In this document: positions 1 through 9,910 of the stretch, in pieces
Numbering within the stretch: the stretch's first letter is position 1
Layout of the letters: every line of letters starts with the position of its first letter
Source: a virus
IMG/VR virus record: IMGVR_UViG_3300025141_000618
Coordinates: 1-26,661 of that record
Reading direction: 5' to 3' (one strand)
Length of the DNA stretch: 26,661 nucleotides
The notes under the pieces: generated by a model
The model's database searches: none
Told to the model about the DNA's origin: nothing
What the model saw: only the letters and a program-made list of their open reading frames with translations
Made by a program: the position numbers and the translations under genes

Positions 1-320
1 ACTAAGACGGGTGAGAAGAAACGACTTTTGGCGTTCAACTGGCGCGCCATCGCTTTGGATTCGTCATCACCTTCACGGTAAAGACTTTTCACAAAGTTAC
101 AGACGGGACAGTCGTCGCCGAAATTATTATTCGGACATAGGAAACCATTTTCCTTGCCGATGTTGTAGTGAAAATGAAAACTCTTGAATGGATCCCCATC
201 ATCCGTTGGAAGAATGCGAATAGTTTGCACCCCATCTTGCGGTTTCCACCAAGAACCTCCAGCACTACGTGCTTTCAAATTATTAAATTTACTTTGCATT
301 TTCTTCATATCAATTGCCAT
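1..320 (-). CDS. gp32: gp32-like single-stranded DNA-binding protein (3' end cut by window edge)
   Basis: I translated this by hand from the ATG at 320; the frame stays open to base 1, so only the first 106 residues are visible. The protein starts MAIDMKKMQSKFNNLK and has WWKPQDG-QTIRILPT (24-38) and a zinc-type cluster: His49 or His51, Cys62, Cys71 and Cys74 (CPVC), then FFSPV. In T4 gp32 the zinc ligands are His-x12-Cys-x9-Cys-x2-Cys followed by a similar stretch, and the spacing here is nearly the same. The family coats ssDNA during replication, recombination and repair. A GGAG ribosome site (AAGGAGAAAACTAAA-ATG) supports this start, and a strong sigma70 promoter lies just upstream. The acidic C-terminal tail expected of the family lies outside the window. 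Confidence 0.85.
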   Translation of the reverse strand, partial: MAIDMKKMQSKFNNLKARSAGGSWWKPQDGVQTIRILPTDDGDPFKSFHFHYNIGKENGFLCPNNNFGDDCPVCNFVKSLYREGDDESKAMARQLNAKSRFFSPVL

Positions 321-353
321 TTTAGTTTTCTCCTTTTCAATTGTTGATGTCGT

Positions 354-382
354 ATCATAACACAGGCAGAACACTTTGTCAA
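354..382 (-). promoter_or_regulatory. Sigma70-type promoter for the ssDNA-binding protein gene
   Basis: On the minus strand there is a perfect -35 box TTGACA (382-377), a 17-base spacer (376-360) and a -10 box TATGAT (359-354, five of six consensus bases). It sits in the 82-base gap between the exported-protein gene and the gp32-like gene, about 34 bases before the ATG. It should be read by unmodified host RNA polymerase, which fits early or middle expression of a replication protein. Confidence 0.8.
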
Positions 383-402: not shown

Positions 403-1161
403 TTATTTTAGGCGGAGTGCCTCTTCCCACGTCCCATACCCTTTAAAGGGGGTTGCCATCCCCAAAGACACGAGATGGCCACCCAATCCATTACCCACAA
501 AGAGAGAATATGCCTTCCCACGTAAAATGCTTTTTGCATTAGGGATCGGAAACCTTTCACTCCACGCACTCCCATGGCGGCGACGGAGTGTTTCATAGGA
601 GGGCCAGTGCCATGGCACTTCCGCTCTCCACTCTAATTTGCAACGGCGTGCACCTACCGGCGTGGAGGTCACGTGCAACGTCCCCCAATAAAGTCCAAAT
701 ATAGAATCCTTCTGACTGCGGTGGGGCATGTAAAAAGGTGCAGTTGAAAAGGTGCGTCCCTTGGGGCATTGGTGATGCTCTACCAACCGTCTCAAGTGGC
801 GCATGTTCCGTTGAACCAACTTGTTCTCTTTAAAGACATGTGCCTTAATCTGATAATCTTCGCCATTTCCATCTAAATAATGAAACATGAGTCCCCCCGT
901 CTCTCTCAGTATCACTGTAGATTTTCCTCCCCACGCCAAGGTGTGGTAAAAATCATCTAGAAAGATGCGCTCTTGGGGTGTTAAAGATTGAGCAGCGATT
1001 GCTTTTCTTTCAATGGTATCAATACGTGCTTGAAGGTGGGGGGTACCAATGCCGGTCCCCAAGGTAAACGCAAGGGAGGCGCGACTACATGCAGTAGTGG
1101 CGAGCCAAATGCTCCCTATTATCCCCACGAGGAGGAAGCATTTAATAATTTTAAATGTCAT
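403..1161 (-). CDS. Exported or lipid-anchored protein of unknown function
   Basis: This 252-residue protein has a clear export signal: a basic start (MTFKIIKC), a hydrophobic core (about 9-22) and TTACS ending at Cys25. The TTAC sequence is a poor lipobox, so either a lipoprotein or ordinary signal-peptidase cleavage is possible. The rest is rich in His, Trp and Arg (for example VPWHWPSYETLRRRHG) with conserved-looking WGGKSTVILRE near 77-87 and NGLGGHLVSLGMATPF near the C-terminus. I do not recognise the family. It is the last gene before the gp32-like gene and follows the PG-binding protein gene by 29 bases, so a role at the cell envelope (lysis, exclusion or wall processing) is a guess from context. 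The ribosome site (AGAAAGAAG) is weak. Confidence 0.6.
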   Translation of the reverse strand: MTFKIIKCFLLVGIIGSIWLATTACSRASLAFTLGTGIGTPHLQARIDTIERKAIAAQSLTPQERIFLDDFYHTLAWGGKSTVILRETGGLMFHYLDGNGEDYQIKAHVFKENKLVQRNMRHLRRLVEHHQCPKGRTFSTAPFYMPHRSQKDSIFGLYWGTLHVTSTPVGARRCKLEWRAEVPWHWPSYETLRRRHGSAWSERFPIPNAKSILRGKAYSLFVGNGLGGHLVSLGMATPFKGYGTWEEALRLK

Positions 1162-1190
1162 GAAAATTCTTCTTTCTAGGAATCCGCTAC

Positions 1191-2489
1191 TTAGACTTTA
1201 ATCTTAACCGGAAATCCTTCATGATTAGTATAGTGGGCCCACAGCGGTGCAAGATTGCGCGCTGTTCGGTAAATATCTTTATCTTTGGCAGATTGAGCCA
1301 GAGAGTCGATACGCTGGGAGACTACCTTTTCAACTTGCTCGTCATTCTTAGCACGATCAAAGTCATTAAAGTCATAGTGATCAGCGATGGTAAATCCTGA
1401 TTCGGGGTTTCCCTGAAACGTAAATTGTCCTAAAAACTTTTCCATCTGTGCTGCCTTGGAGGGATCTACGAAGAGGGTTTTAAATGATTGCGGCTTGCCG
1501 CTCTGACCATAGTAAATGCCCGTTTCTTCTTCTGGGTTTGTCTCTGCTTTGTAGACGGAGTATGCTTTACCCAGTGTCTTGTCGCCGAAGCGGAAGGTGC
1601 CAGTTTTTTTCCAGTTGCGCCGTTCCTGTCGTAACCGCTGTCTTGTCTTTGTGCTAAGGTTGGGATCTTTTTCGTAGGCGCCGGTGGTGAGATTAGTTAA
1701 AAAGTTTCTAATCCACTTCACTTCATCTTCTGCCATGTCCTTTTCGGTCCATGGATTATTGCGCCATCCCATAAAACTTAAGAAAGCACGCGTATGAAGA
1801 TCTCCTCCAAGAGGCACGTTTGAGGCGAATCGGGTGAACGCACTTTGTATCTTCTTGAAGACTTTGCCCGGAGTTAGTTCCTTCGCCTTGGTAGTAAGAT
1901 CCTTTTCATACTTCGCTCCCAACAACTCTAGGGATGCCTTTTTGTATTTTTCGACGCCTGAAATATTCTGAATGCGTGACACTAAGTCATCCCCCGTCTT
2001 CTCTTTAAATCCGTCCACAAGCGCTTTTTCCCAGGCATCCGTAGATTTATATTTCTTAATAATATTATATATCTCTTCCATCTCTTCTTCGTTTACATAG
2101 GAAAACGTACTCAGGTGAGAATCCAACCTCTCTAGGTCTTTCTCTCCTGCCATGAGTGCGGCGCGTTGTTTGCCCTTTTTTCCCCTTTTGTTGGCGGGGA
2201 TCCCTAACCACTTGCGCGCTGTCGCTCCGCCCAGAACTCCATCAGGTTTTACCCCTAATTTTCTCTGGAGATCCTGAACCGCCTTCTTTGTGCCGGGACC
2301 AAACTTTCCATCGACCTCTAGTCCCAGAGCATTTTGCACTTGAGATACGGCAGCACCACTGCTTCCAACGCGGATGGTGCCTTTGTCTAGGAGAATATCT
2401 TGCATAGATAACTCTTTCTTTTCTAGGAAACGCTGTGTCTCTTCTCGGACAATGCGGTTAAGTTGGTTGGTGGATATCTTCATTTTCAT
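1191..2489 (-). CDS. Peptidoglycan-binding-domain protein with colicin-M-like motif
   Basis: This protein has 432 residues. Residues 1-25 form a basic amphipathic leader (MKMKISTNQLNRIVREETQR). Residues 39-97 are a PG_binding_1 domain: VGSSGAAVSQVQNAL, VDGKFGPGTKKAVQDLQ, VKPDGVLGGATARKWLG, with the usual paired DG-x-(F/L)-G-x-x-T repeats. A charged helical linker follows, then a C-terminal region with GGDLHTRAFLSFMG (228-241) and DHYDFNDFDR (370-379). The latter resembles the colicin M active-site segment (D-x-Y-D-F-N-x3-H-R), but is one residue shorter and has Asp where the His would be. The domain pairing suggests a cell-wall enzyme, either a virion-borne lysin or an endolysin; no standard lysozyme or amidase motif is visible. 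It starts 5 bases after the upstream gene ends and is probably co-translated. The catalytic assignment is inference. Confidence 0.7.
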   Translation of the reverse strand: MKMKISTNQLNRIVREETQRFLEKKELSMQDILLDKGTIRVGSSGAAVSQVQNALGLEVDGKFGPGTKKAVQDLQRKLGVKPDGVLGGATARKWLGIPANKRGKKGKQRAALMAGEKDLERLDSHLSTFSYVNEEEMEEIYNIIKKYKSTDAWEKALVDGFKEKTGDDLVSRIQNISGVEKYKKASLELLGAKYEKDLTTKAKELTPGKVFKKIQSAFTRFASNVPLGGDLHTRAFLSFMGWRNNPWTEKDMAEDEVKWIRNFLTNLTTGAYEKDPNLSTKTRQRLRQERRNWKKTGTFRFGDKTLGKAYSVYKAETNPEEETGIYYGQSGKPQSFKTLFVDPSKAAQMEKFLGQFTFQGNPESGFTIADHYDFNDFDRAKNDEQVEKVVSQRIDSLAQSAKDKDIYRTARNLAPLWAHYTNHEGFPVKIKV

Positions 2490-2494
2490 ATTCC

Positions 2495-3073
2495 CTATCC
2501 CCCCTGGATATCTTTGAATTTCAACAACATATTTTGTAATTGTTCCGTATCGGCATTATTTAATATTTGCTCTATATCTTGGGGACTTCGCTTTTGTTTA
2601 CGTAGAAACGCACCCACGACCTTTTTCAAATCTTCATCCGAGTACTCGGCGCCTTCGATGGGATCTCCAAACATGTCCCCGCTGCGCCCCACGGATCTCT
2701 TAATGCCCTCACCTTCCGCCCACTTATTAATCAGTGGGGCGAGAATCTTATCAAAACCCCTCTCTATATAATAAGGATGCTTCAGCAAGTTTAGTGGATT
2801 TCCTTCGGCATCCATGATGGCATTCGGGTGAAAAGGAGGATGGCCTGATTCGTCGGATGGATCTTCGGATCCCATAACCACTTGCTGGTCCTGCTCGGTC
2901 CATTCACTTCCCATCTGGTCTTTGAGATGGGCGATCCAATCACAAACTGTCTCGGCGGTGTCGGTGGTCAAACCACCCCCTTCGCACCAAGGCGGCGTAA
3001 AGAACTCGGTGAGTTCTTGCTGTTCTTCGTTCACGTATTTTTTAAAGTTTTCTAACAATATCTTCATTTTCAT
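2495..3073 (-). CDS. Acidic small protein with MKMKI leader, unknown function
   Basis: I place the start at the ATG at 3073 (192 residues), not the GTG at 3142. The 23 extra codons would be read through a 20-base tandem repeat in which the frame is not kept, and the ATG has a GGAG ten bases upstream. The protein begins MKMKILLENFKKYVNEEQQ, an amphipathic leader sharing its first 16 nucleotides (ATGAAAATGAAGATAT) with the next gene. The remainder is acidic with no motif I recognise; the C-terminal third is helical (EDLKKVVGAFLRKQKRS, IEQILNNADTEQLQNMLLKF). Leaders of this type followed by L-x-E resemble T4 capsid-targeting peptides, and LTE occurs at residues 21-23, so an internal head protein is possible but unproven. 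Confidence 0.6.
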   Translation of the reverse strand: MKMKILLENFKKYVNEEQQELTEFFTPPWCEGGGLTTDTAETVCDWIAHLKDQMGSEWTEQDQQVVMGSEDPSDESGHPPFHPNAIMDAEGNPLNLLKHPYYIERGFDKILAPLINKWAEGEGIKRSVGRSGDMFGDPIEGAEYSDEDLKKVVGAFLRKQKRSPQDIEQILNNADTEQLQNMLLKFKDIQGG

Positions 3074-3111
3074 AAGGGGTGTGCTCCGTGGATAAGGGGT
3101 GTGCTCCGCTG
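3072..3111 (-). repeat. 20-base tandem duplication containing the ribosome-binding site
   Basis: Two adjacent 20-base units (3072-3091 and 3092-3111) are identical for the first 17 bases (ataaggggtgtgctccg on the plus strand). On the coding strand each carries CGGAGCACACCCCTTAT; the downstream copy ends in the real ATG, whereas the upstream copy ends in ATC and so has no start codon. A complementary GTGCTCCG lies upstream at 3142-3135 on the coding strand and could pair with either copy (8 base pairs), masking the GGAG. This looks like a duplicated ribosome site with a possible hairpin switch. Confidence 0.8.
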
Positions 3112-3122
3112 ATCTATTATTA

Positions 3123-3131
3123 TAAATAGTT
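3123..3131 (-). promoter_or_regulatory. AACTATTTA intergenic motif, copy 1 (candidate late promoter)
   Basis: The coding strand reads GCGAACTATTTATAATAATAG, about 50 bases before the ATG at 3073, in the loop of the potential GTGCTCCG/CGGAGCAC hairpin. The same nine-base core occurs in five other intergenic gaps of the window. The promoter role is inference. Confidence 0.45.
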
Positions 3132-3152
3132 CGCCGGAGCACTTAAGACCCC

Positions 3153-3419
3153 CTACCCAAACAACTTGACTCTTTCATCATCGGTCATCTCAATCTCCCG
3201 TAAGTCTCCCACTTGAGAAGAATAATTAAACACGCGGAAATCTGCGGCATCTAAATCCCAGACCAATTCCATACCTTTAGGCATCGTACGCTCTTTAGTA
3301 CCTTCTTTAATCTTCGTCGACAAAAAAGTCTCTGGTACATCATCTAGTTTCACAAATGTCATGTGCCTTAGATCATCATTCTTTTTCTTAAACATTCCTG
3401 CATATATTTTACTCATCAT
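3153..3419 (-). CDS. Small conserved-type protein, possible partner of the tubulin-like protein
   Basis: This 88-residue protein is MMSKIYAGMFKKKNDD followed by MTFVKLDDVPETFLSTK, GMELVWDLDAADFRVFNYSS and an acidic end. I see no enzyme motif; its alternating strand pattern suggests a small beta-rich domain. The gene overlaps the end of the tubulin-like gene by 11 bases (AATTATGATGAGTAA) and has an excellent ribosome site, AAGGAGTAAATT-ATG. I have an impression of similar small proteins in marine T4-like phages but cannot name one. The tight overlap suggests it is made in step with the upstream protein and may bind it. Met2 (3416) is an alternative start. Confidence 0.7.
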   Translation of the reverse strand: MMSKIYAGMFKKKNDDLRHMTFVKLDDVPETFLSTKIKEGTKERTMPKGMELVWDLDAADFRVFNYSSQVGDLREIEMTDDERVKLFG

Positions 3420-4254
3420 AATTTACTCCTTGTATGATTTTTGTGTTGGTTAAAAGATAAATATAGTTCTCTTCATAGGGTGTGGCATAGACCCCAAATC
3501 CTGCCTTGATTGTGGTGTCATCTTGCTTGACCCGTAACTTAATACGCCCTAAAAGGGCGGCGTCTTCATCTAATTGCTTCTCGTTGATCGCAAAGAAGTA
3601 GGTCTTCTCGCTAATATAATCAAGAGGAAAAAATAGACGATCTGTTACATTCGCCATGGTTCCAATACCCAGCGTCCCAATGCGGCATATACCACTCTCA
3701 TCAATGGGACTCGCAAAGACTGCATCGCTATTGCTATAGACGTTGGTCATATGATAGGTGGAGGCGATAATAGAGTTGAGGCGAGGATAGTAGTGAGCAA
3801 CCGGAATGTTTCCCACTCCCTCCTCCACCGAAGAGTTGGACAGCAAGAGGAGACGCTCTATTACCCCCGAGCGCGCATACTCTTGAAAAACATTAAAAGT
3901 AACATTGTCCATGGTCATTGCACTCTTGGAAATACTCGACCGATCCGGACGAATATATACCACCTCGGTAGGCACGTGCTGTACTGCTTCTAATATACGG
4001 AGGGATGCTGATGAAATCTTGCCACCGCCGGCGACTATTAACACTGCTCTTCCTTCTATTTTCTTCAAGGCATTAATCACACGCTCTGGGAATTTACTTT
4101 CATACTCTTCAGGCGAGTTGCGCTTAGTAATAGAAAAATTATTCTTTGCTTTAGGAATCCCGACGTCCACTTTGAAAATCTTATAAGGAGGATATTCACC
4201 CAATAACTCAGCAATAGCGCATCCGGCGTTACCTAGTCCAATGACATTAATCAT
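3409..4254 (-). CDS. Divergent tubulin/FtsZ-like GTPase candidate
   Basis: This 281-residue protein shows a series of features in the order of the tubulin/FtsZ fold. There is a first strand and nucleotide loop INVIGLGNAGCAIAELL (2-18, GxGxxG), a second strand ending in VD (29-30), and VLIVAGGGKISSASLRIL (71-88), in the place of the GGGTGTG signature but altered to GGGKISS. EVVYIRP (97-103) and YARSGVIERLLLLSN (126-140) follow, the latter resembling FtsZ loop T6 ending in Asn. A core-helix-like LNSIIASTYHMTNVY (159-173) leads into NSD (175-177), matching loop T7 N-x-D, and ESGICRIGTLGIG (186-198) matches the stretch after T7. It is shorter than cellular FtsZ (about 380 residues). The second T7 acidic residue is absent (Phe180). 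It overlaps the MazG-like gene by 8 bases. It might instead be a plain nucleotide-binding Rossmann protein. Confidence 0.55.
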   Translation of the reverse strand: MINVIGLGNAGCAIAELLGEYPPYKIFKVDVGIPKAKNNFSITKRNSPEEYESKFPERVINALKKIEGRAVLIVAGGGKISSASLRILEAVQHVPTEVVYIRPDRSSISKSAMTMDNVTFNVFQEYARSGVIERLLLLSNSSVEEGVGNIPVAHYYPRLNSIIASTYHMTNVYSNSDAVFASPIDESGICRIGTLGIGTMANVTDRLFFPLDYISEKTYFFAINEKQLDEDAALLGRIKLRVKQDDTTIKAGFGVYATPYEENYIYLLTNTKIIQGVNYDE

Positions 4255-4561
4255 CCTCTACTTCTCCTAGAATCCATCGTTCGTTAAAGGCGCCACGCGA
4301 TTCTATCTTTTTGGCGCGCTCATGTCGTAAATCTCCCTGTACATATCCCATCTCCTTAAGAATGGCATTAATCACCTCTTGAACATCTGCAAGTTCTTTG
4401 AGGGAGGGACTTTCAAGAAACTCTCCCACCTCTTCCACTAACTTCTTTTTAAGATAAGAAGGATACTCTTCTTGATCTGCTTGCCACATGGTGAAACTTT
4501 TCTCCTGCTTTTCCATAATCATGGGAATCTTATCTCTTACTAGTTTGTTATAATATGTCAT
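4247..4561 (-). CDS. MazG-like nucleoside triphosphate pyrophosphohydrolase
   Basis: This 104-residue all-helical protein opens with YNKLVRDKIPMIM (4-16), the usual start of the small MazG-like/phosphoribosyl-ATP pyrophosphatase-like family. It carries the metal-binding EExxE (Glu43, Glu44, Glu47) and ExxD (Glu56, Asp59 in ELADVQEV). Enzymes of this family hydrolyse NTPs or dNTPs to monophosphates; phage versions are thought to tune nucleotide pools or alarmones. The start codon overlaps the polymerase stop codon as ATGA, and the end overlaps the tubulin-like gene, so it is translationally coupled on both sides. Its place beside a DNA polymerase fits nucleotide housekeeping during replication. 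Confidence 0.78.
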   Translation of the reverse strand: MTYYNKLVRDKIPMIMEKQEKSFTMWQADQEEYPSYLKKKLVEEVGEFLESPSLKELADVQEVINAILKEMGYVQGDLRHERAKKIESRGAFNERWILGEVEDD

Positions 4562-5814
4562 ACCTTAATCTCCTGCATGGTTCCAAAATCTTTTCCCGCG
4601 CTCACTCCAACCTTATAGTCTCCGAACCGATTGGACGCAAATATGCTTTTGATCTCTGGTATATTATACCGCGCTTCGGCGGGAATGTCAAGCACAAAAC
4701 TGTCGTGGATCAAAAAAACTATGCGCGATGGCATTCCTTCAAGGAATTCGCGTACTTTGAGTACCTGCTCCAAGACTAAATCGCTAGTGGTGCTTTGTAC
4801 TAGATAGTTTAAAGCATAATGCTCACCCGCTTCTATAACGCGCCCGAAAGGAGTTGTCACGCGGGTACCATCCCAATATTTTCCCAATACTTCATCTCTG
4901 TTGTAGGTTTTATTCAACAGGGCGTCGTTGGAGTGGGGATTATACAACCACGCAAAAAGGCGCTTCTTTGCCTCCTCACGGGTGCACGAACCTTTGAAGA
5001 TGTGGCGCATATTCCAATCGTGAATATCTTCGGTGGGTTGCTCTATCTCCATTAGAGAGAGCATCGTCCGCAATTCTGCTGCATTATAATCAAACTCCAC
5101 AAACAAATCATTGGTAGGTTGTAGAACCTTACGGAAATTCTTGGGTAAATTAAGAATAGGAAAACTCCCCTTTTCAAGGATAAGGCGACCCGTTACCGAT
5201 CCAAATTGATTATAGGAGAGAGTGTTATCTACACGGTGTAACTTTTTTAAATTCTTTCTCACCACCAGCGACGAAATCTCTCTGCTCATCGCATTTAAAT
5301 CGACATTGAGGGGGTTGCTCTTAATCTCAGTAAAAAGTTTTTCCAACTCTAACATTCTATGATAGGTGGATGGGCGCTCTTCGTGATTAAATATCCACTC
5401 AATAATATCACACTTAACTTGTGAGTAGTCTCTTATAAACCACCGTGGAAGAATGTCTTCAGTACACACATTTCCTACATCTACTTTAGAAACTCGGACA
5501 GCACTATAAAATGCCTCCTTTCGCTTTTGCATGTGATCCCACTCATCTACTAAGTGCTCCGGACATAAGTCGGTAAGAGATTTCCCTTTCCCGTACAACT
5601 TTACACACTCTACGGGGTCGCCGGCAAACAACGGATTGTAATCCCATGTCACATTCTGACTTTTGCCCCGATATTGTTGGATAGTGCCGTCGTAATAATA
5701 TCCTAAACACTCTTTTTTTGAATCTAAAACAGTGAAAACATTACTCACTCTAATCTCTCTTTCTTTTAAACCGGAAGGTGCCTCGCTGGTATTGCTCGGT
5801 TCGCTCATATTCAT
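4558..5814 (-). CDS. Family A DNA polymerase, palm/fingers only, no exonuclease domain
   Basis: This 418-residue protein has the family A core motifs in order. TGRL is at 208-211. Motif A is VEFDYNAAELR with Asp242 and Glu247. Motif B is R279-x3-K283-x3-F287-x3-Y291, matching the spacing of E. coli Pol I Arg754, Lys758, Phe762 and Tyr766. The Q-helix is LNYLVQSTTSD, with Asn336 and Gln340 matching Asn845 and Gln849. Motif C is LIHDSFVLDIP, with His370 and Asp371, but Ser372 replaces the usual Glu. There is no room for a 3'-5' exonuclease; residues before 200 are thumb-like at best. It overlaps the upstream gene by 65 bases from this ATG; a GTG at 5748 (Val23), directly after that gene's stop, is a credible alternative start. 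Phe287 predicts strong discrimination against dideoxynucleotides. Confidence 0.85.
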   Translation of the reverse strand: MNMSEPSNTSEAPSGLKEREIRVSNVFTVLDSKKECLGYYYDGTIQQYRGKSQNVTWDYNPLFAGDPVECVKLYGKGKSLTDLCPEHLVDEWDHMQKRKEAFYSAVRVSKVDVGNVCTEDILPRWFIRDYSQVKCDIIEWIFNHEERPSTYHRMLELEKLFTEIKSNPLNVDLNAMSREISSLVVRKNLKKLHRVDNTLSYNQFGSVTGRLILEKGSFPILNLPKNFRKVLQPTNDLFVEFDYNAAELRTMLSLMEIEQPTEDIHDWNMRHIFKGSCTREEAKKRLFAWLYNPHSNDALLNKTYNRDEVLGKYWDGTRVTTPFGRVIEAGEHYALNYLVQSTTSDLVLEQVLKVREFLEGMPSRIVFLIHDSFVLDIPAEARYNIPEIKSIFASNRFGDYKVGVSAGKDFGTMQEIKV

Positions 5815-6973
5815 CTGGCGCCCTCTTTACCTCTTTGTTGATAAACTTTAAAGTAGCATTTTCACCCGCATAGCGGAGAAAATCTGTTGCGCGCTTCACA
5901 ATGTGATCAAATTTATACTGATCCCACTCCCGATTTGTTTCCTTTGCCCGTATATAAATGTAAAATCTCACCCAAAACGCATTTGGATACCGATCAAAAT
6001 ACGCCTCACGATCCATTGTAGCACGTTTCTTTACGCGTGTCAAGCTAATATTGCGACCATTGCGGGTTTGTATTTCGACTTGGCGCGTGGTAGGGAATGC
6101 CTCAACAAAAGATTCATAGAAACTACGCATATACACCCTTATGTTAGGGATGTCAAAGAAAGATGAATTATAATAATATTTATCGAAGAGAAGATCGTTG
6201 TTCATATTGTATGCTGCCATAAATTGTTGCATTGGCCAAGATGATATATCTGCAATGAGGCGCCAAGGGGCATTCATATCCACCACAAATCCATTTTGAC
6301 TTGCTATTTCACGGTATAATTCAAAATTAACATTATTGACGAACTGGGTGATCTTGGGGAGGTCTTCCCCGTGTTCTCGCGTATCGAACTCTACCATCAT
6401 GCCGCTCACCAGAGGCGATGCATACTTGCTGACAATATATTCTGTCTTGGTGAAGGGAATAAGGAGCGATGTTCGGTCGACTAAGCGCGCAAACTCCGTA
6501 ACAAAGTCGTCAAAGTTATGTATATCGTTTATGCGTTCGGGAGCAGACATGAAGGGTAAGACAAAATTCTCATAGTACCCTTGAATATAGGTGTTAAAAT
6601 TGTGAGTAGTACTGATCCAACCACTGGTGGGTTGAAAACGATCTTCGAAGGGGGATCCATCTAAATTAACAAAGTGGTTCAGATTCTCTTGTTGCGCCAT
6701 GTCGTTGCGGAAAGACTCGTAAGCATCGGCCACAAAATTGAGAACAAAATAGTTCTGGGGGACACTTGGGCCCCCTCTCAATTGCTTGAGAAACCCTTCT
6801 ACGGGATATACTACATCTCCCTTGCGATTGACGCGACCCCACATTATCTCGTTATACCATAGGTTAATTTCTCTGTAATCACGAATACCCGGAGGATAGT
6901 TGGTGAGATACTTTTGCCTCTCGATGAAGGCATCTTGCGCGGGACTTAAATTAGAAGCAAAACTTATTTTCAT
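5750..6973 (-). CDS. Probable virion protein at the end of the baseplate cluster, unknown
   Basis: This 407-residue soluble protein is rich in aromatic residues. It has LWYNEIMWGRVNRKGDVVYP (38-57), which I associate with unnamed structural proteins of marine phages. Later parts include TTHNFNTYIQGYYENFVLPF, MQQFMAAYNMNNDLLFDKYY and a basic C-terminus (YQRGTFRFKRKRD). No signal peptide, membrane segment or catalytic motif is visible. It starts 3 bases after the hub-like gene ends, with GGAG eleven bases before the ATG, and is the last gene of the tail/baseplate series before the polymerase. A baseplate or hub accessory role is inferred only from position. Confidence 0.6.
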   Translation of the reverse strand: MKISFASNLSPAQDAFIERQKYLTNYPPGIRDYREINLWYNEIMWGRVNRKGDVVYPVEGFLKQLRGGPSVPQNYFVLNFVADAYESFRNDMAQQENLNHFVNLDGSPFEDRFQPTSGWISTTHNFNTYIQGYYENFVLPFMSAPERINDIHNFDDFVTEFARLVDRTSLLIPFTKTEYIVSKYASPLVSGMMVEFDTREHGEDLPKITQFVNNVNFELYREIASQNGFVVDMNAPWRLIADISSWPMQQFMAAYNMNNDLLFDKYYYNSSFFDIPNIRVYMRSFYESFVEAFPTTRQVEIQTRNGRNISLTRVKKRATMDREAYFDRYPNAFWVRFYIYIRAKETNREWDQYKFDHIVKRATDFLRYAGENATLKFINKEVKRAPDEYERTEQYQRGTFRFKRKRD

Positions 6974-6976
6974 ATT

Positions 6977-9910
6977 TTATTCCGCTCCATTAATAGGGGA
7001 TGAAATAATGACAGGCCCACAACTGTTCCCCTCGGTGTCAGTTAGGGTGGCGGGTTCCCCCGACGCCAACGCTTCGGTGGCTTCTGCATCGGGAAGGTAC
7101 CCGTCATTCTGGTAAATGCACTTCAAGGTTGTCTCTAAGATACCGTCCGTCACCATACTAGACACATGGGTAATCAAATAAAATCCCCCGATTCCCAACA
7201 TGCGAGCAATCGATAACCTTTCGGCGCCCGTGCCTAACCCAATGGTGGTAGGATTAATATAAACATAAGTGCCGGGTTGGAAGAATCCGCCCCCAAATAT
7301 TCTAACGGTCGCATTATAAGGTTCCTTAATGCTTCCCAATCCGGCGCCTCCGTTGTTATATGCGCGCATGATGTTGGCATCTCGAATACGCTTATTAGAT
7401 TCACGCTGTAGATCAATCGTCTTCACTAATCCTTTGTCGGCGCCAATCTTTAAGTGATATACCCCCTCCTTAGCATTTTTTTCTTCGTCCACCACTTGAG
7501 ATTCAAAAGGAAGGCGACTGACTGAGAACACAAAAAACTGCCTGTCTTTTTGAAGGGGGTCTACAACTCCCCCCTCCACTGCCTCACTCATAGTGTTACC
7601 GTGTTTAATGTGAAGGGTTTGAGGTTTGATGAGTAAAGTACTTTCCCCCGTGGCGGGATCTACTTTCTCCGTGTTTAAAAATCTTCGCTTTAAGTGGATA
7701 TTTTTTCCATAGACGACCGCTGATTTGACCTGATTGCGTTCTTTCATGAGGCGCCTCAAATCTGAATGTACATAATTTGCCTCTGTTGCCTGCAATGTCC
7801 CTACCAACAATCGAGTCGTAAGGGATTGCACAAAAGATTTAAAAGTAAAAATCTCGTCCCCATTAATTACCTCGTCCGTAAACCATGTAGTGTAGGCAGA
7901 GAAAGAAATAGGAACATGCGCCAAGTTCTTAGTGACGCGGAAAGCACTTTGGTTGGCCAAAATTCCCTCGGCGGCGACTTGGGTGGTTGCTTCGCTCACC
8001 TCGATGTCTTCCGTGACGGCATCGTCTTGCAACTCCTCTACCACTGAACCGCCTACCATTTTATAATCCAAGAACGTGAGATCCCCGAGTAAGATTTCAA
8101 ATTTGTCCACATCATTAGTATCCTCGGCGGGCATCACTCCGCCATAGAAGTTGATCAGATCCCCTAAGTAGAAATATGCCAAAGCATTATAACCCTCTCT
8201 CTTGCCCTTGGTTCGCTTGATGGCGCCATAAACACGAGACTTGATTTTAGTATCAGAGAGGTCACGATCTCCTAATGCTCCATTGCCCGTGGATACATTC
8301 TGCGTGGCACTCACGGTGCCTTCCGCCAACTGCCCGATGGCATTCGTCTTTGCTTTTTCTTGCGCGACTGAGGAGTCTGCCTCTGTAAGAGGAATATTGC
8401 TGTATGCATAATCCTGATCGCTTACATCCAGAAAAAACAATCGCTTTTTTTTGAGCAAGAATTGAGTAAATTTCCCATACAACGACAGTTTTAACTGCTT
8501 AGTGAGCGCAGCTAATTCCTCCTGGAGCTTGTCGATCCTCTTGTCGAGTTTGGCGGCTTTGGCGTCGAGTGCGTTCTGTTGTCGGTTCGTCATCGCCGGG
8601 TTTTCCACACACGCAAACACCCCAGTGGGACTATCAATAGCAGTTTGCATTACCTGAATTTTAGACTTCACGTCTTCCATCTCTTTAGCAACCGCATTAC
8701 TCTTCCCATCGGAAGTTATATTAAGAAGATTGGACCCATAGTCATTCATAATCCCTTCAAGGCGCGCCACATATTCGATATCTAAATCAATAGTGCCTTC
8801 CTCGCGGAACCTAAATTTGTGCTGCACAAGTGTAAGGTTGAGAACAATCCTGCTCGCATCTACTGCATTACGTAGGGCTTGTGATATTTCTGCGTTAACA
8901 CCGTAAGTCCACCCCACTTCGACGACCACGGCAAAATCACTGCCACTTTTCTTATACGCTCTCTCGTCAGCAGAAAACTTAGCTAACTCCGCATGGGTGA
9001 GTTTAGATCGTAACAACGCATTCAGTTCGGGTACCACAGTAGGGCACTCTCGGGATGGTGCAAGTCGGTCGTGCCGAGGAACAATCAAGTCCCACCACCG
9101 TGGACCATTTCCTTGACTGCCGCGTGCACTCTGCGCCAATTCGCTAACTGATTGAAAGTGAAGTGAGATGTTGGCACTTAAAGTGCGTGGTGCACTGAAG
9201 AGATTGGTGCCTGTCGTATCCCACTTAAAGGATTTAAATCCCACTCCCTGCCCATAGGAGGACAGTATATCTCTTTCTCGTCCCCCGCCACCAGCAGACT
9301 CGTGGATGTCGTATTTCCAGTTCAATTTGTCCATAAATTGAAATTCGGTCAACTTCCCCTCCGCGCCTTCTTTCTTGCACATCTTAAAATAGGGGGTTAG
9401 TTGACTTAGTTCAAATGGTGTAGCGTTCATCAGCGGACCAAGTTTGGTGCTGGTGGTAATCTTGTTGACTAGGTTTCCTTTATATTGAGAAACTAAGGTG
9501 AGGTTCTCTAAGTCTTGGGGGCATGGTGCCAAATCTGATTCTGCGAAGGATCGTAAGTTTTCAAGGAGATAATTTTGAGGAGTCTGTCTTTTGAGACGCG
9601 CTGCAAAGTCGGCCTGATCAACTAAAGACTCCTCCTTCTTCTCTGCTACCGTTCTCTTTGCCGGCATGCCACGGCGCCTTTGTGCTTGGAGTGCGGAATC
9701 CAAAAACTCATCTTGACACTTTTGAAATGCCTCATCGCGAGCGGCACCTGCTAGTTGTGATGCTGTATCCTCGCAGGTTGTACGAGTCTTTTCGTATATC
9801 TCTATTTCTTTATTATAATATTGTTCGGCACTCAGTCCATAGCGGTTTATGGCGCTGCCGCCCTTTGGAGTTCCTGCTGCTTTTTTGTCGGATCCTTTTC
9901 CTGTTGTCAC
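6977..9910 (-). CDS. Large baseplate hub-like structural protein
   Basis: This 977-residue protein starts at GTG (9910), preceded by GAGAGGG in the end of the LysM-like gene and one base after its stop. Its N-terminus is charged and disordered. The region 222-256 (GFKSFKWDTTGTNLFS, LSANISLHFQSVSEL) and the segment HKFRFREEGTIDLDIEYVAR (364-383) look like the beta-rich domains of phage hub proteins that carry edGs-x-L-x-IEY patterns. About 405-475 is a strong coiled coil. The C-terminal part (PGTYVYINPT, IGGFYLITHVSSMVTDG, LETTLKCIYQNDG) resembles the end of gp27/gpD-type hubs, where the fold closes with such strands. Its position after a LysM-like protein and the tape measure is the usual place of the hub. 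It is much larger than T4 gp27 (about 390 residues), so it may be a fusion of hub with another baseplate part. Confidence 0.6.
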   Translation of the reverse strand: MTTGKGSDKKAAGTPKGGSAINRYGLSAEQYYNKEIEIYEKTRTTCEDTASQLAGAARDEAFQKCQDEFLDSALQAQRRRGMPAKRTVAEKKEESLVDQADFAARLKRQTPQNYLLENLRSFAESDLAPCPQDLENLTLVSQYKGNLVNKITTSTKLGPLMNATPFELSQLTPYFKMCKKEGAEGKLTEFQFMDKLNWKYDIHESAGGGGRERDILSSYGQGVGFKSFKWDTTGTNLFSAPRTLSANISLHFQSVSELAQSARGSQGNGPRWWDLIVPRHDRLAPSRECPTVVPELNALLRSKLTHAELAKFSADERAYKKSGSDFAVVVEVGWTYGVNAEISQALRNAVDASRIVLNLTLVQHKFRFREEGTIDLDIEYVARLEGIMNDYGSNLLNITSDGKSNAVAKEMEDVKSKIQVMQTAIDSPTGVFACVENPAMTNRQQNALDAKAAKLDKRIDKLQEELAALTKQLKLSLYGKFTQFLLKKKRLFFLDVSDQDYAYSNIPLTEADSSVAQEKAKTNAIGQLAEGTVSATQNVSTGNGALGDRDLSDTKIKSRVYGAIKRTKGKREGYNALAYFYLGDLINFYGGVMPAEDTNDVDKFEILLGDLTFLDYKMVGGSVVEELQDDAVTEDIEVSEATTQVAAEGILANQSAFRVTKNLAHVPISFSAYTTWFTDEVINGDEIFTFKSFVQSLTTRLLVGTLQATEANYVHSDLRRLMKERNQVKSAVVYGKNIHLKRRFLNTEKVDPATGESTLLIKPQTLHIKHGNTMSEAVEGGVVDPLQKDRQFFVFSVSRLPFESQVVDEEKNAKEGVYHLKIGADKGLVKTIDLQRESNKRIRDANIMRAYNNGGAGLGSIKEPYNATVRIFGGGFFQPGTYVYINPTTIGLGTGAERLSIARMLGIGGFYLITHVSSMVTDGILETTLKCIYQNDGYLPDAEATEALASGEPATLTDTEGNSCGPVIISSPINGAE

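Follow-up and report, generated by a model that had tools for sequence, protein, structure and literature searches.

A 281-aa protein encoded in the replication operon of a T4-like phage has almost certainly, to judge from its structural model, the fold of the tubulin/FtsZ superfamily. It is a degenerate and minimal member of it, in which the acidic residues of the T7 loop are not conserved and helices H8 and H9 are missing, and it is smaller than every full tubulin-superfamily chain compared. The phage tubulins known so far come mostly from jumbo phages that form a nucleus, and from plasmid-like prophages. The protein described here, denominated minimal tubulin, represents a different and very abundant family found in T4-like phages. 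Hundreds of unannotated phage genes gain an identity in this way, and a second phage FtsZ, able to share a genome with the minimal tubulin, is also pointed out.

Source and gene layout

The whole stretch of DNA analysed, a 26.7-kb virus record of 26,661 nucleotides, is called here the window. It belongs to a myovirus, with tail sheath (phrog_23, E 2e-69), tail tube, baseplate and major head protein (phrog_138, E 6e-70) genes all present. The tail sheath has some of its best matches in Flavobacterium phage immuto and Rhodothermus phage RM378. The Far-T4 group has RM378 as its cultured reference (PMC4360716), and the window may thus be placed near Far-T4 phages; the main text of the cited paper makes no mention of tubulin or FtsZ. 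The following genes, most of which form a continuous run, are found on the minus strand of the window:

6977-9910, minus strand: 977-aa protein of unknown function, conserved, opening the shared gene block
5750-6973, minus strand: 407-aa protein of unknown function, conserved upstream neighbour
4558-5814, minus strand: short family-A DNA polymerase, 418 aa (PF00476, 6e-12; phrog_17, 5e-17)
4247-4561, minus strand: 104-aa MazG-like protein between polymerase and tubulin, accessory
3409-4254, minus strand: 281-aa minimal tubulin, with predicted tubulin/FtsZ fold
3153-3419, minus strand: 88-aa small protein, accessory and not universal
1-374, minus strand: gp32-like SSB, start only, the gene being cut by the window end (profile match in the reverse-complemented window)

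The 281-aa and 88-aa ORFs exist as originally described, and overlap by 11 bases.

Predicted fold

The 281-aa protein has no significant match in Pfam, PHROGs, NCBIfam or PDB sequences. The window protein has no match to PF00091 above the Pfam gathering score, and 12 of 109 relatives match this profile weakly (E up to 1, best 1.4e-4). Matches to TrkA_N, detected in 27 of the 109 (best 6e-5), are about as weak. In profile comparisons residues 4-106 matched PhuZ with a probability of 88%, and the match to FtsZ was weak (probability 2%). Sequence alone leaves the family open; the predicted fold settles the matter in favour of the tubulin/FtsZ superfamily.

The AlphaFold2 model, obtained without templates from an alignment of 109 members sharing less than 80% identity, has a mean pLDDT of 96.3 and a pTM of 0.93 (an earlier model from 5 sequences, pLDDT 57, was too poor for structure searches). 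The modelled protein features a complete tubulin/FtsZ fold, made up of the core GTPase domain, the long helix H7 and the C-terminal domain. The best 50 Foldseek matches in the PDB are all FtsZ or TubZ chains (E 1e-13 to 1e-11, TM-score by query length 0.65-0.74). In VIA-align the top match is the CetZ structure 3zid (Z 25.1, 256 residues, rmsd 3.1 A, residues 1-278), followed by FtsZ, TubZ and tubulins, all covering residue 1 to about 270-281. Among the top five matches to viral models in BFVD are phage proteins annotated as FtsZ, as cell division protein and as tubulin. The original call of a divergent tubulin/FtsZ-like protein is therefore sustained, as the model has both the N-terminal GTPase core and H7, and the PDB structural matches listed all belong to the superfamily.

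A Rossmann family was named at the outset as the reading that would overturn this call. That the protein is an ordinary Rossmann NAD(P)- or ligand-binding protein, as a TrkA/RCK domain, is very improbable. The TrkA_N matches mentioned above and profile matches to KtrA (E 4e-4, two weak repeats) speak for it. However, the window protein scores 13.5 bits against the TrkA/RCK domain, below the Pfam gathering cut-off of 23.8, and the weak matches, those of the window protein and those to the PDB alike, span just part of the first, nucleotide-binding half. By contrast, H7 and a C-terminal domain are part of the confident model, which matches tubulin structures from residue 1 to 278, and residues N140 and N160 suit guanine binding. 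No RCK, dehydrogenase or other Rossmann chain is found among the PDB structural matches listed, although this is not proof.

Conserved residues and missing elements

Secondary structure elements were assigned by us from DSSP on the model. The N-terminal part reads S1-T1-H1-S2-T2-S3-T3-H3-S4-T4-H4-S5-T5-H5-S6-T6-H6-H7, H7 corresponding to helix 152-174, and S7, S8, H10, S9 and S10 follow. H8 and H9 are missing, because no helix is modelled between residues 175 and 224. The relevant features are:

4219-4239, minus strand: T1 G-loop, residues 6-12, GLGNAGC (G6 98%, G8 100%, G11 96% in 109 relatives)
4165-4167, minus strand: T2 aspartate D30, 92% conserved, in alignment with the T2 Asp that is invariant in PhuZ
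4009-4029, minus strand: T4-equivalent loop, residues 76-82, GxGx[IV]S[GSA], profile-aligned with the T4 of FtsZ and phage FtsZ
3868-3885, minus strand: QxYARS at the C-terminal end of H5 (Q124, R128, S129), 100% in 109 sequences
3775-3837, minus strand: T6 loop and H7 start, N140 to N160, with the putative guanine-site residues N140, Y155/Y156 and N160
3721-3753, minus strand: H7 end and T7 position, residues 168-178, HMxNVY-N, acids not conserved, no H8
3442-3681, minus strand: reduced C-terminal activation-type domain, residues 192-271, with S7, S8, H10, S9 and S10 (DSSP on the model)

Conserved residues fall into two groups. The first corresponds to the nucleotide pocket, and includes G6, G8 and G11 (T1), D30 (T2), G76, G78 and S81 (T4), N140, Y155 and N160. 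Among these, G6, G8, G11, G76, S81, N140, Y155 and N160 are 87-100% conserved in the 109 relatives below 80% identity. The motifs initially noticed by eye, GLGNAG (residues 6-11), AGGGKISS (75-82) and LLLLSN ending at N140, are all present, and conservation of their positions (87-100%) is beyond chance. N140 is found in 98%, Y155 in 94% and N160 in 98-99% of the relatives, and an aromatic residue is found in 100% at position 155 and in 84% at 156. N140 and N160 are in register with the T6/H7 region of FtsZ, PND...F...N, in the hhalign profile alignment. As read from these alignments, the N140, Y155 and N160 pocket appears to fit guanine contact, and it is quite probable that the minimal tubulin binds a guanine nucleotide. 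The H7 stretch [YF][YFW]xx[LI]N resembles YGDLN of beta-tubulin, in which Tyr224 and Asn228 contact guanine.

Residues of the second group, Y24, Q124, R128, S129, M169, G196 and Y260, are strictly invariant, a property shared elsewhere by G8 only; H168 and N171 are 97% conserved. According to the parallel-sheet topology of the model, Y24, the H5-S6 turn and the H7 end would lie on the bottom face, the site of the FtsZ T7 loop. QxYARS should similarly be located at the bottom side of the sheet.

The T4 signature GGGTG[ST]G is not found, and is replaced by the family pattern reported above. No conserved acidic residue corresponding to NxDxxD or an equivalent motif is present in the 172-190 interval of the 109 relatives. 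T7 acidic residues serve GTP hydrolysis in the tubulin superfamily (PMC3678025). The NSD triplet originally assigned to T7 is present at residues 175-177, but only partly conserved: N175 is found in 70% of the relatives, and residue 177 is E in 39%, D in 20% and K in 21%, and thus acidic in only about 60%. The lack of the second T7 acid had been noticed at the outset; the region is more degenerate than that, since neither acid is conserved and H8 is missing. The window protein ends with IIQGVNYDE, and most relatives stop within about 15 residues of strand S10. Purifying selection on the gene is strong (median dN/dS 0.074, 136 close pairs).

Distribution and genomic setting

Two IMG/VR scans identified at least 579 and at least 595 confirmed relatives of the minimal tubulin, and more than 570 IMG/VR contigs encode them. 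No bacterial or archaeal relative was found in the scan of genome contigs, and no convincing match was found in isolated phages. A tblastn search of INPHARED picked a hypothetical protein of the Shewanella phage SppYZU05 (L005:4001-4375; 28%, E 0.08), encoded in a cluster with a PAAR protein; the similarity is probably due to chance. The phage group carrying the minimal tubulin is large and apparently undescribed. The literature covered on phage tubulins deals with PhuZ and TubZ and reports nothing on the minimal family, of which an earlier mention may exist elsewhere.

About 190 loci share one block, in which genes for the 977-aa-like and 407-aa-like proteins, the polymerase, the MazG-like protein (optional), the tubulin, the 88-aa protein (optional), SSB, a RecA/UvsX-like protein, a 5'-exonuclease and DnaB follow each other. 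Genes of the tubulin loci checked always lie on the same strand. In 117 of 163 loci the tubulin frame begins before the upstream gene has ended, 4 bases being the commonest overlap. A scan with the polymerase profile found the tubulin in all 79 newly cut loci, some of them on contigs already seen; as only best matches were taken, this figure describes the clade and not every phage with a short PolA. One minimal-tubulin copy per contig was found in 17 contigs checked, up to 204 kb in length. The arrangement originally proposed, a tubulin beside the polymerase of a T4-like myovirus, is therefore real, and is a constant trait of a large group of phages.

The same does not hold for the 88-aa protein, regarded at first as a tightly coupled partner. 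Coupling is evident in the window, but most relatives do not have the small gene. It adjoins the tubulin in about 39 of about 200 loci, approximately a fifth, and is hence not an obligate partner; a dedicated partnership is not supported. By a weak match, the 88-aa product resembles small phage proteins of the Sm/SH3-like (WYL_2) type.

Related phages lacking the gene

The 160-kb genome of phage immuto has the order pol-gp2-gp3-ssb-recA-exo-dnaB, with no recognisable tubulin at this place. IMG/VR relatives fetched by means of the immuto polymerase have the same operon order, again with no recognisable tubulin there. The tubulin is therefore not a subunit required by the polymerase everywhere. 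In one locus (L294) the order is pol-tub-gp2-ssb, which indicates that the tubulin has been gained or lost as a unit, and that the operon can work without it.

The immuto gp2 (L217:1346-1801, L294:5086-5538) is a conserved protein of about 150 aa, of unknown function, encoded between polymerase and SSB in immuto-like phages, and found once beside the tubulin gene, in L294. The hypothesis that gp2 (about 151 aa) is what remains of the C-terminal domain of the tubulin was discarded, as the hhalign probability is 0.7% and the two genes adjoin each other in L294.

A second, canonical phage FtsZ

By searching large contigs with PF00091, a 364-aa canonical FtsZ-like protein was found in a 166-kb contig (L096):

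L490:4390-5481, minus strand: canonical FtsZ-like protein of the L096 contig, with GVGGGGGK, AGGGGGTGS and FDSKDLER motifs

Its relatives (L492-L571) form a family of about 345-370 aa belonging to the same superfamily as the minimal tubulin, from which they differ in length and in having intact T4 (GGGGTGS) and T7 (FDSKDL, with invariant Asp, D249 and D252) loops. At least 107 IMG/VR stretches encode such proteins, and no match was found in isolated phages. A stop in L532, suspected of recoding, turned out to be the end of the gene.

Six of 24 contigs examined for the canonical FtsZ host also the minimal tubulin, still located between polymerase and SSB; the canonical form alone was seen in the remaining ones, up to 281 kb. 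Altogether, seven of the contigs examined have both, the canonical gene being located elsewhere in the genome. Obligate pairing was considered and rejected, as no second FtsZ was found in 15 of 16 contigs of at least 80 kb chosen for the minimal tubulin, and many contigs hold just the canonical FtsZ; all the contigs checked are fragments, in which absence is not proof.

Comparison with known tubulin systems

The archaeal CetZ proteins (3zid, 4b45, 4b46) are the best structural matches of the minimal tubulin (Z 23-25, 15-17% identity), and share with it the whole fold, H7 and C-terminal domain included. The minimal tubulin differs in having 281 aa, no H8/H9, a degenerate T4 and no acidic T7, and sits in a phage replication operon, whereas CetZ is found among cellular shape genes. 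Bacterial FtsZ is similar in the fold, and T4, T6 and H7 are in register by profile alignment, but the minimal tubulin has no GGGTGTG, no NxDxxD T7 and a shortened T3, lacks H8/H9 in the model, and has no C-terminal tail.

PhuZ is the tubulin of nucleus-forming jumbo phages (PMC4244570, PMC3678025), and has been lost in some lineages (PMC12768965, PMC13282480). It is phage-encoded as the minimal tubulin, and the 88% profile match covers the first 100 residues or so. PhuZ however keeps a GGGSGS-type T4, the two T7 acids (D187, D190) and a tail rich in acidic residues, none of which is conserved in the minimal tubulin; the tail ending DDxxxxDGMV is absent from it. The annotated neighbours of the 201phi2-1 PhuZ encode hypothetical and virion proteins, whereas the minimal tubulin is fixed beside the polymerase in the sampled clade. 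TubZ, the component of TubZRC plasmid and prophage partition systems, also matches in the fold (4ei7 and 2xka, Z 22.5), but its chains of 381-410 residues exceed the minimal tubulin by about 100 residues. No tubC-like iteron array was detected in the window interval 2400-5900 or in the 2500-9500 interval of L039. No TubR-like small DNA-binding neighbour is conserved, the neighbours of the tubulin being polymerase and SSB.

These comparisons bear on the hypothesis that the minimal tubulin forms cytomotive filaments of the PhuZ or TubZ kind, moving or centring phage DNA by dynamic GTP hydrolysis. The common superfamily, the large tailed phage host of the gene and the adjoining replication genes are in keeping with it. 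Yet the T7 acids, invariant in PhuZ (D187/D190) and phage FtsZ (D249/D252), are not conserved, H8 and a PhuZ-like acidic tail are missing, and tubC-like iterons and a conserved TubR-like neighbour were not found. As far as the model can tell, the loss of H8 and of the T7 acids argues against ordinary cytomotive filaments, and this hypothesis is unlikely. The coupling of the tubulin to the polymerase frame may entail low expression, unlike that of abundant filament proteins.

Proposed role

Purifying selection and the fixed position indicate that the minimal tubulin matters to these phages. The loss of the part driving GTP breakdown suggests that phages turned a cytoskeletal protein into a replication-tied factor. 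Adjacency of genes does not prove a role in replication; such a role is nevertheless favoured with some confidence. The balance tips slightly towards a divergent superfamily member that works with the phage replication machinery as a scaffold or holder. The protein would bind GTP or GDP. As the nucleotide face is kept but there is no acidic T7 loop, it would hydrolyse GTP poorly, or by other residues (Q124, R128, S129, H168, N171). It could self-assemble head-to-tail, or cap or scaffold a partner, with the phage replisome or DNA under replication held or positioned in this way. Self-assembly into filaments is conceivable but somewhat doubtful. That the protein might replace a sliding clamp was also considered; the T4 clamp family was matched nowhere, controls included, so that this search does not bear on the idea. 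In a more elaborate and quite speculative version, a T7-less tubulin built into the replisome and regulated by GTP would self-assemble by a re-invented bottom face, and would space or hold forks, sometimes alongside the canonical FtsZ; that this face is made by Q124, R128, S129, H168 and N171 is just as speculative.

The most serious alternative outside replication is that the minimal tubulin attacks host division as a decoy, which during infection would bind the T7 face of the host FtsZ through its intact nucleotide face and cap or block the Z-ring. A kept nucleotide face and a lost T7/H8 continuation element are what a one-sided cap is expected to look like, and phage inhibitors of FtsZ are known, lambda Kil being an example (PMC3961180). 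However, the tubulin gene is nearly always found between polymerase and SSB in the replication operon and not among host-takeover genes, and strict invariance is highest in the residues of the bottom side, for which a one-sided cap has no use. The cap reading is accordingly improbable. The family lets one test directly whether a tubulin can act in replication, and how much of the fold may be lost before assembly fails.

Other features of the operon

The MazG-like pyrophosphatase gene occupies the polymerase/tubulin interval of about 30 loci. The 418-aa polymerase has, by eye, palm and fingers motifs and no 3'-5' exonuclease domain; proofreading may hence be absent or encoded elsewhere. In some phages extra genes separate the 88-aa gene from SSB. 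A peptidoglycan-binding protein is encoded in the window interval 403-3142, and two proteins resembling by eye an L,D-transpeptidase and a D-Ala carboxypeptidase are encoded in L001:6197-8510. Judged by eye, these genes would form a variable cell-wall cassette within the replication operon. A 20-bp tandem repeat in two copies (ATAAGGGGTGTGCTCCG..) is found at 3072-3111 of the window, between the 88-aa gene and a 215-aa gene.
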